Origin: Myxococcales bacterium
Lineage (GTDB): Bacteria > Myxococcota_A > Polyangia > Polyangiales > Ga0077539
NCBI GenBank assembly: GCA_030652255.1
Contig: JAUSAZ010000073.1
Coordinates: 124,001 to 188,000 of the forward strand
Reading direction: 5' to 3'
Length of the DNA: 64,000 bases
This document shows positions 60,911-63,621 of this stretch, piece by piece. Below the pieces are notes generated by a model, which was given only the letters and a program-made list of their open reading frames with translations, was not told where the DNA came from and ran no database searches. Numbering within the stretch: the first letter of the stretch is position 1; the number at the start of each line of letters is the position of its first letter. The translations under genes were made by a program, and so were the position numbers.

Positions 60911-61843
60911 TCACCACGGGAGCACCGCGGCCTCGCCGTGTCGTCGCGCGAGCCCGTCGACGTACTGGAGCAGCAGGTCGCGCCGGCGCAGGAGCGACCG
61001 GACCTGCCCCGCGCTGAGCGGCGGGCTCGCGCGGTCGGGGTCGAGGGCCATCTCCGCCAGCACCGAGGCCTCGGTCATCGCGCGCGCCCGGCCGATGACC
61101 GCGCGGCTGAAGCGCTGCGTGCGGTTGAGCAGCGAGCGCGAGCGCTGGAGCAGGCCGTCGACGAAGGGCTCCTCGAAGCCGCCGTTGTTGTCGCGGTAGA
61201 TGAGGTGCCCCTCGGCGTCCATCGGGACGTTGGCGCCGCTCCATCGGTCCCAGTTGCCCGTGAGGAAGTCGAACACCAGGAGCGTGGAGATCTCCTCGGC
61301 GCGCCGCGCCTGGTCGGGCGGCACCGTGCGCCCCTGGCGGAGCCAGCGTCCCCAGCGCTCCTGCTCCTCGGGGCCGTCGATGCGCGACGGCCGGAGCACG
61401 GGCACCCAGTAGATGGCCGCGCCGCGCGCGGTGTTGTCGCGCTCGAAGAGCACCGGGCTGGTGGGCGCGAGCCGCAGCGTGGCCCGGGGGATGGCGCGCG
61501 AGATGGCGGGCGGCACGCGGTTGAGGCCCAGCAGGCGGTTGAGGCGGTACGCGGCGATCTCGGCGCGGTAGCTGTCGCGGTGGGTGCTGGTGCGGGGCTT
61601 CCACGCCGCGTCGATGCCGCCCTCCAGGCGGAGGTGGAGGTTGACGCTGGTGCTGCCGACGTTCTGCCGTCCGAGCACCCTGGCGCCGCGGATGGCGTCC
61701 AGGATGCGGGCCTCGGAGACGCCGCCGAATTGGCGCGCGTCGGCGACCGCGGGCGGAGCGACGGGCGCAGGCTGCGAGCGGGCCGCCAGCGGGCCGAGCG
61801 CCACGGCGGCCGCGAGGAGGGGGGAGAGCCATCGACGCATCAT
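60911..61843 (-). CDS. Exported FAM20/four-jointed-like kinase
   Basis: From ATG 61843 (or 61840) a signal peptide (LLAAAVALGPLAARS) precedes 280 residues that match animal secretory-pathway FAM20C/four-jointed kinases in order. These are a Lys loop AAWKPR (K82), the Glu helix AEIAAYRLNRLLGLNRVPP (E95), the catalytic DFLTGNWDRW (D199) and the metal Asp in YRDNNGGF (D218). All four key residues are present. Animal FAM20C has AEIAAFHLDR, RVPP, FDFLMGNMDRH and LDNGRGF at the same places. It should phosphorylate secreted proteins or glycans (inference). Confidence 0.75.
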   Translation of the reverse strand: MMRRWLSPLLAAAVALGPLAARSQPAPVAPPAVADARQFGGVSEARILDAIRGARVLGRQNVGSTSVNLHLRLEGGIDAAWKPRTSTHRDSYRAEIAAYRLNRLLGLNRVPPAISRAIPRATLRLAPTSPVLFERDNTARGAAIYWVPVLRPSRIDGPEEQERWGRWLRQGRTVPPDQARRAEEISTLLVFDFLTGNWDRWSGANVPMDAEGHLIYRDNNGGFEEPFVDGLLQRSRSLLNRTQRFSRAVIGRARAMTEASVLAEMALDPDRASPPLSAGQVRSLLRRRDLLLQYVDGLARRHGEAAVLPW

Positions 61844-61911: not shown

Positions 61912-63621
61912 CTACTCCGCGACGACGACGGCCCCCGCGGGCACCCGATGGAGGCGCCGCACCGCGCCGCTCACGAAGCGCACCTCGAGCTCGTCGACCA
62001 CGGCCGCGGACCCGAGGCCCAGGTGGACCACGTGCGGCGCGGCCCCGGCGATGGAGAGGTTGCCATCGAGGCGTCGCGCGACGACCCGGTCGCCCACCCG
62101 GGCGCGGACGTGGGCGCCGATGCCATCGCGAGCGCCGCCGCGCCCCCGCGCCGTCACCGTCAGCGCGTTTCCGACGCTGGCGTCGTTGCGCAGCGCCACC
62201 ATCCTGCCCGGCCGACCCGGGAGCGCGCCGTGGACCATCGCGAGGTCGAGGTCACCGTCGCCGTCGAAGTCGGCCGCGACCGGGAAGTGCCCGCCGTGGA
62301 GCTCGGCGAGTCGCAGCGCGTCGGTGACGTCGTCGAGGCGGTGCCCCGTGCCGTGCAGCATCACGCCGGCCTGCAGCGTCGGCTCGGGGAACAGCGTCGA
62401 GATCCCCGTCATGCCCGTGCCGATGTACACGTCGTCCCGCCCGTCCTGGTCGTAGTCGAAGACCAGGGGCGTCCACTTGGTCGAGGGCATCCGCGTCGAG
62501 TCCGGCTCGAGGTACTGATCGCGAAACCCGGCCATCGGACCCATCCAGCGGTTGTCCGGGTCGAGGGGATTGAAATGCGGCACCTGCCCGGCCAGGGGGA
62601 CGCCGTAGGCGTCGGCGCCCCACACCCGCGCCATGTCGACCCAGTGGCTCTCCACCCGGTGCATCAGCACGTTGCACCCGTAGTTGGTCACCAGCACCTC
62701 GTCGACGCCGTCGCCGTCGACGTCGATGGGGCTCACCCCCATGGCGAAGATCCGGGCGTCGAAGCCCGGGGGCAGCGGCTGCTCGGTGAGCGTGAGCGAT
62801 CCCCCGACGCGCTCTACCCGGAGCACCTGGTTGCCGCCGTTGAGCATCCCGAAGTCGCTCCCGACGATGAGCTCATCGCGGCCGTCGGCGTCGAGGTCGT
62901 GCCACCGGAGCGCGAGGGCGCGCCGCGGCTCGGCCCGTACGGACACCGGCTCGAAATCCCAGGGCGCACGCTGGCGCCACGCCAGCACCCCTTCGGGACA
63001 GCCCGAGATGAAGGGGAGGCGACAGTCGCCCTCGCGCGCGGCCGAGGCGACGACCACGTCGAGGAGACCGTCGGCGTCGAGGTCGCTCAGGGAGATGGCG
63101 TTCACGTCCTCGCCGCCGTCGAGGTGGCCAACCAGCACGAAGCGGCCACGATCGTTTCGCAGCAGCCGGACGCCCCGGCCGTCGCGGGAGTAGACCAGCA
63201 GGTCCGGATCGCCGTCGCCGTCGAGGTCGGCCGTGGCCGTCGACGAGATCCGCCGCTGCTCCTCGAGGCCCCAGAGCGAGCCGACATCGACGAAGGCCCC
63301 CTCGCGGTTCAACAGCAGCGCCATCGGGCGCATCCCGTCGAAGCCCGCGACGAGGTCGACCCGACCGTCGCCGTCGAAGTCCGCCGCGCTGAGCACCCCG
63401 GCCGCCGGCTCGTTCTCCCCCGTGTTCTCGTCGAAGGTCAGGTGGAGCCCCCAGCGCTGGTTGGCCTCGCAGAAACCTCCTCTCCGATCGTTCCCCCGAG
63501 GCTTGCAGGGCCGATAGCCCTCCATGCGCTCCGCGAAGTCGGCCCCGTCGCGCTCGGGCGGCGGCGCCCCGGCGCATCCGACCACCATCGACGTCGCCCA
63601 CGCGCGGATGATATGCCGCAT
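61912..63621 (-). CDS. FG-GAP/VCBS lipoprotein with C-terminal ASPIC/UnbV domain
   Basis: The start is ATG 63621 with a short lipoprotein signal (WATSMVVGC). At least six FG-GAP calcium loops are seen (AADFDGDGRVDLVAGF, TADLDGDGDPDLLVYS, SDLDADGLLDVVVA, IDVDGDGVDEVLVT, FDYDQDGRDDVYIG, ADFDGDGDLDLAMV), indicating an integrin-like propeller. The last 70 residues (GIGAHVRARVGDRVV, HLGLGSAAVVDELEVRF) match ASPIC/UnbV. It precedes the FAM20-like kinase by 68 bp on the same strand, so the two may be co-transcribed and both exported. Confidence 0.85.
   Translation of the reverse strand: MRHIIRAWATSMVVGCAGAPPPERDGADFAERMEGYRPCKPRGNDRRGGFCEANQRWGLHLTFDENTGENEPAAGVLSAADFDGDGRVDLVAGFDGMRPMALLLNREGAFVDVGSLWGLEEQRRISSTATADLDGDGDPDLLVYSRDGRGVRLLRNDRGRFVLVGHLDGGEDVNAISLSDLDADGLLDVVVASAAREGDCRLPFISGCPEGVLAWRQRAPWDFEPVSVRAEPRRALALRWHDLDADGRDELIVGSDFGMLNGGNQVLRVERVGGSLTLTEQPLPPGFDARIFAMGVSPIDVDGDGVDEVLVTNYGCNVLMHRVESHWVDMARVWGADAYGVPLAGQVPHFNPLDPDNRWMGPMAGFRDQYLEPDSTRMPSTKWTPLVFDYDQDGRDDVYIGTGMTGISTLFPEPTLQAGVMLHGTGHRLDDVTDALRLAELHGGHFPVAADFDGDGDLDLAMVHGALPGRPGRMVALRNDASVGNALTVTARGRGGARDGIGAHVRARVGDRVVARRLDGNLSIAGAAPHVVHLGLGSAAVVDELEVRFVSGAVRRLHRVPAGAVVVAE

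Follow-up and report, generated by a model that had tools for sequence, protein, structure and literature searches.

We report a protein of 310 aa (P0001) that shares homology, fold and catalytic residues with the FAM20 kinases of animals, and which we consider probably to be an exported and active member of a bacterial branch of this family. Its gene lies at 60911..61843 on the minus strand (-) of the window, i.e., the whole stretch of 64,000 nucleotides that was analysed. In animals, the FAM20 family phosphorylates secreted proteins and proteoglycan sugars. FAM20 has been called Metazoa-specific in a kinome survey (PMC9758233), and a study of FAM20 evolution searched animal genomes and did not mention bacteria (PMC5865150). 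Apart from a paper in which CotH, a bacterial atypical kinase of the Bacillus spore coat, is compared with FAM20C (PMC12189002), a partial coverage of the literature yielded no description of FAM20 subfamilies in bacteria, which is weak evidence of their absence from it.

The reading frame of P0001 runs from an ATG at 61843 to a stop at 60911 and is a genuine gene, coding under purifying selection. Orthologues occupy the same site in two congeneric genomes (G001 and G004) with 79-86% protein identity, and in both congeners the kinase gene is flanked by a CcmB-like gene and a gene for an exported protein of 266-268 aa. Values of dN/dS were about 0.08/0.40 and 0.13/0.70, with synonymous change exceeding amino-acid change around fivefold. 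A preliminary description of this DNA had given the correct coordinates for the gene; K82, E95, D199 and D218 were found at the positions it gave for them, and both motifs that it quoted, AEIAAYRLNRLLG and DFLTGNWDRW, occur in the protein.

Kinship with FAM20 is visible from P0001 alone, which in a phmmer search of the PDB found human FAM20A, hydra FAM20 (FAM20B) and FAM20C at E-values of 5e-9 to 3e-7 (best 5.4e-9). A profile built from P0001 and 23 relatives (A1) found six distinct FAM20 sequences in the PDB, from FAM20A, FAM20B and FAM20C, at 6e-21 to 6e-16, the best being FAM20C (6.2e-21), and the first entry outside FAM20 was a type II PI4-kinase (PI4K-II) at E = 1.5. The alignment with FAM20B/hydra FAM20 was the most complete, covering profile positions 26-300 of 301. 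The Pfam Fam20C model (PF06702) was matched by 21 of the 24 A1 sequences at E < 1 (best 7.5e-10); P0001 by itself scored 13 bits, i.e., below the cut-off of 26.8, and three relatives (L169, L170 and L188) exceeded the gathering score, with 47-67 bits. The Pfam model of FAM198 (FAM198/GASK1), a family related to Four-jointed (FJX1), was weakly matched over the alpha-C block, with an E-value of 0.0036 for P0001, which is below the cut-off, and of 4.7e-4 for the best relative.

The predicted structure points the same way. An AlphaFold2 model of P0001 (pLDDT 90, pTM 0.85) falls among FAM20 folds, as the best 28 matches in a fold search against the PDB were all FAM20, with E-values of 1.8e-13 to 9e-8 and query-normalised TM-scores of 0.52-0.66. 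Type II PI4-kinases came next at 1.8e-6, a fold E-value seven orders of magnitude weaker than that of the best FAM20 and one that is accompanied by no significant sequence match. The FAM20 relationship put forward in the preliminary description is therefore supported by sequence profile, predicted fold and residue-by-residue alignment.

In human FAM20C, K285 and E311 form an ion pair, D458 is the catalytic Asp and D478 the metal-binding Asp; E306, in a FAM20-specific beta3-alphaC loop, is essential, and FAM20A, which carries Gln at this position, is a pseudokinase (PMC4421793). In the profile alignment, from which the correspondence of catalytic residues was taken rather than from superposed coordinates, K82, E95, D199 and D218 of P0001 align with K285, E311, D458 and D478 of FAM20C. 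Of 121 bacterial relatives, 104 have K and 15 have R at the ion-pair Lys, K82 (K133 in hydra FAM20; 61598..61600, (-)), and 119 have E at E95, in the alpha-C helix AEIAAYRLNRLLG (61526..61564, (-)). Alignment and conservation likewise mark the catalytic loop with D199, DFLTGNWDRWSG (61235..61270, (-)), and the metal-binding motif with D218, RDNNGGF (61175..61195, (-)), each of these two aspartates being retained in 118 of the 121 relatives. Three further residues, D192, N197 and R200, are invariant in this set.

While the four key positions named in the preliminary description are indeed kept, a fifth was overlooked: D90 (61574..61576, (-)) aligns with the essential E306 of FAM20C (D152 in hydra), in a beta3-alphaC loop that is shorter than in FAM20. 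All seven A1 rows with >=44% identity have an acidic residue here, as against only 27 of 121 relatives, and acidity at this position is not a family-wide feature. Among more distant relatives (L025, L027, L028 and L037) Arg stands in place of the beta3 Lys, and Arg or Lys is frequent at the E306 position, a combination that may indicate altered nucleotide chemistry.

Taken feature by feature, P0001 resembles animal FAM20A, FAM20B and FAM20C (PF06702) in fold, in the catalytic K/E/D/D, in the NxDR and DN..F motifs and in the AEIAA-RL-R-LG--R-PP block of alpha-C. Animal FAM20 act in an extracytoplasmic compartment, as P0001 would by its predicted export. It differs in being bacterial and shorter, in lacking the N-terminal extension and the long beta3-alphaC loop of FAM20, in having W after DR where FAM20 has H, and in its changed sugar-site residues. 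Furthermore, FAM20 has four disulfides (PMC5865150); P0001 contains no cysteines and thus none of these, and for this reason we place it as a bacterial FAM20 branch and not as an orthologue of FAM20A, FAM20B or FAM20C.

Export of P0001 itself is probable and that of its family likely, judging from N-terminal sequences. The N-terminus of P0001, MMRRWLSPLLAAAVALGPLAARSQ, is signal-peptide-like by a crude rule (not SignalP), and residues 1-23 (MMRRWLSPLLAAAVALGPLAARS; 61775..61843, (-)), with an RR motif, form a probable signal peptide by this rule and by the N-termini of orthologues. Tat signals are clear in orthologues from other genera, namely MQRRSLLG (QRRSLLG) in L129, SRRALLS in L130 and TRRSMLI in L131. 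The same crude rule found a signal-like N-terminus (Sec, Tat or lipoprotein) in 95 of 121 relatives, compared with the 46 of 101 neighbouring genes on which it also fires (Fisher p 4e-7); 51 of the relatives, but only 11 of the neighbouring genes, had one of the Tat or lipoprotein type (Fisher p 2e-7). The signal peptide noted in the preliminary description therefore stands as a probable one, backed by the orthologues and judged by the crude rule only.

From these features a mechanism can be proposed. P0001 would cross the inner membrane through Sec or, more likely in this lineage, Tat, and, once outside the cytoplasm, would act as a phosphotransferase. Between its lobes it would hold ATP and a divalent metal, with K82 paired to E95, D218 and probably also D90 on the metal, and D199 acting as the catalytic base. 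The acceptor of the phosphate would be a protein or glycan that is secreted or belongs to the envelope. We consider the likely mechanism to be phosphorylation of a secreted or envelope-located target in a reaction that depends on both a metal and ATP. The bacterial periplasm is not known to be rich in ATP. The nucleotide could be ATP that has been released, that is present outside the cell or that is carried; alternatively, since Tat exports folded proteins, P0001 could have bound its ATP before leaving the cytoplasm.

The substrate could also be the sugar of an envelope or secreted polysaccharide instead of a protein, P0001 then being a glycan kinase in the manner of FAM20B, which we regard as rather unlikely though worth weighing. 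Basal animal FAM20s are xylose kinases (PMC5865150), it is the FAM20B chain that aligns most completely with the A1 profile, and T114 of hydra FAM20, a xylose contact, aligns with T65 of P0001. However, P0001 has S66, W201 and G221 in place of the other hydra sugar contacts Q115, H301 and K321, and its counterpart of the Y148-Y151 loop is shorter. The loss of these contacts argues against Gal-Xyl as the substrate, not against every sugar.

Equally, a kinase fold need not imply kinase activity, and P0001 might be a pseudokinase scaffold or, like SelO and SidJ, an enzyme that transfers another group such as AMP or glutamate. There is precedent in FAM20A, itself a pseudokinase, and in apparent pseudokinase copies within the wider bacterial family (L174, L184 and L178). 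Against this, P0001 retains the K, E, D and D together with the acidic D90, and all of these except D90 are strongly conserved in the 121 sequences, so that we judge loss or change of activity to be unlikely.

It is very unlikely that P0001 belongs with HipA or with other protein-kinase-like proteins of bacteria and owes its likeness to FAM20 only to a distant relation between superfamilies. HipA_2 (PF20613) is matched by 11 of the 24 A1 sequences at E < 1 (best 2.8e-5), P0001 has a weak match to the SCO1664 family, and a distant protein-kinase-like fold is common to HipA, HipA_2 and P0001. FAM20 is nevertheless far ahead of HipA both in sequence, with 6e-21 against no HipA or CotH chain in the PDB up to E = 10, and in fold, where it takes all 28 top matches; the profile comparison proposed with the preliminary description thus favours FAM20. 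No HipB-like antitoxin gene was noticed in the surroundings of the kinase, PADLOC gave no match, and the exported-looking and lipoprotein members of the bacterial family are ill-suited to the role of a cytoplasmic toxin. As for CotH, it lacks a DFG-type metal motif (PMC12189002), whereas P0001 retains D218, and the A1 profile does not match it in the PDB.

Immediately upstream lies a gene for an FG-GAP/ASPIC-UnbV lipoprotein of 569 aa (61912..63621, (-); assigned by Pfam), which adjoins the kinase gene outside any conserved unit. The lipoprotein exists as the preliminary description had it, but its role as a partner did not hold up, and it was rejected as a functional partner on the evidence of orthologue surroundings and synteny. 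That the kinase acts together with it, e.g., by phosphorylating it, is highly improbable, as the common strand, the 68 bases from its stop to the kinase ATG and the exported look of both proteins are outweighed by its presence at the syntenic site in the window genome only (G001 has a different gene of 483 aa there and G004 has none), by its absence from the surroundings of the examined orthologues outside the genus (BLAST of surroundings, synteny), by a nearest relative (44%, in G003) on a contig with no kinase match, and by zero S-x-E motifs, the kind on which FAM20C acts in proteins, in its 569 residues. More generally, outside the genus no neighbour of the kinase gene is conserved, and no conserved operon or partner hints at a substrate; as such, gene context gives no pointer to what the kinase might phosphorylate.

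Genes related to this FAM20-like kinase are common in Myxococcota. The window's own genome carries five copies, 53 of 57 related genomes carry at least one, and of 284 Myxococcota genomes searched with the A1 profile, 80 contain the family. A search with only the Pfam Fam20C model passes over the genome of the window, so that its tally is a lower bound. Beyond the phylum, the range was gauged from a single motif scan across 84,980 species; its required motif, L[ITQ][GA]NxDR[WF][SN]G, under-samples the family. The scan returned 67 loci, nearly all from Myxococcota, the other labels being one Armatimonadetes MAG (L099) and two rumen MAGs labelled Proteobacteria (L103 and L104), at 24-30% identity; either mislabelling or transfer may account for these three. 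The plasmid collection held no family match. One weak relative was seen on a contig from a viral database (L168:5001-5540; IMG/VR contig of 76.8 kb), with 28% identity over residues 95-295 and an E-value of 2e-6.

The wider kinase family also includes long proteins of 834-1212 aa from other families of the phylum (f27 and relatives; L173, L177, L174 and L184), in which a CxxC-rich N-terminus and a membrane segment precede a C-terminal FAM20-like domain, usually with about three copies per genome. In two of them, L174 and L184, the motifs read NWER and RHNGDAF, with the catalytic D changed to E and the metal-binding D to H, and in L178 the catalytic D is G (NWGR). On these substitutions, the three are probable bacterial pseudokinase copies and a possible parallel to FAM20A.

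Beyond the window, a lipoprotein subfamily from family f12 of the same order (termed f12 below; L106-L111, L116, L192-L204 and L215) comes closest to animal FAM20 among the bacterial sequences, as a profile from only five of its sequences reached FAM20C at 1.4e-30. The cysteines of the Cys341-Cys400 disulfide (hydra FAM20 numbering) are present in 14 of 14 f12-type sequences from distinct genomes and in none of the other bacterial relatives that were examined. A mixture-model tree grouped animal FAM20 with f12 (99/92) within a larger set that includes a subfamily termed 'ins' (99/97), and with the two Cys columns removed the animals still fell inside f12 and ins (99/94), the exact sister group being undecided (AU p 0.39). 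This tree is unrooted and holds three animal sequences only, two of them partial, on a long animal stem; with such a stem, partial rows and no root, it gives no direction of descent. We therefore raise only tentatively, as a possibility that we hold to be somewhat doubtful, that the animal FAM20 kinases have their ancestors among the exported lipoprotein kinases of myxobacteria, or that one transfer event is common to both.

A large, mostly exported-looking bacterial FAM20 branch that keeps all the catalytic residues would contribute a bacterial route to phosphorylation outside the cytoplasm, and would pose the question of where the ATP there comes from. It would also offer compact, cysteine-free homologues for enzymology. 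Because one bacterial subfamily, f12, has the FAM20 disulfide pair, the origin of the animal secreted-protein kinases becomes testable. If the proposed common ancestry or transfer is true, phosphorylation in the secretory pathway would have started as a bacterial envelope enzyme, and Myxococcota would still be using varied extracytoplasmic kinases and pseudokinases of this kind.
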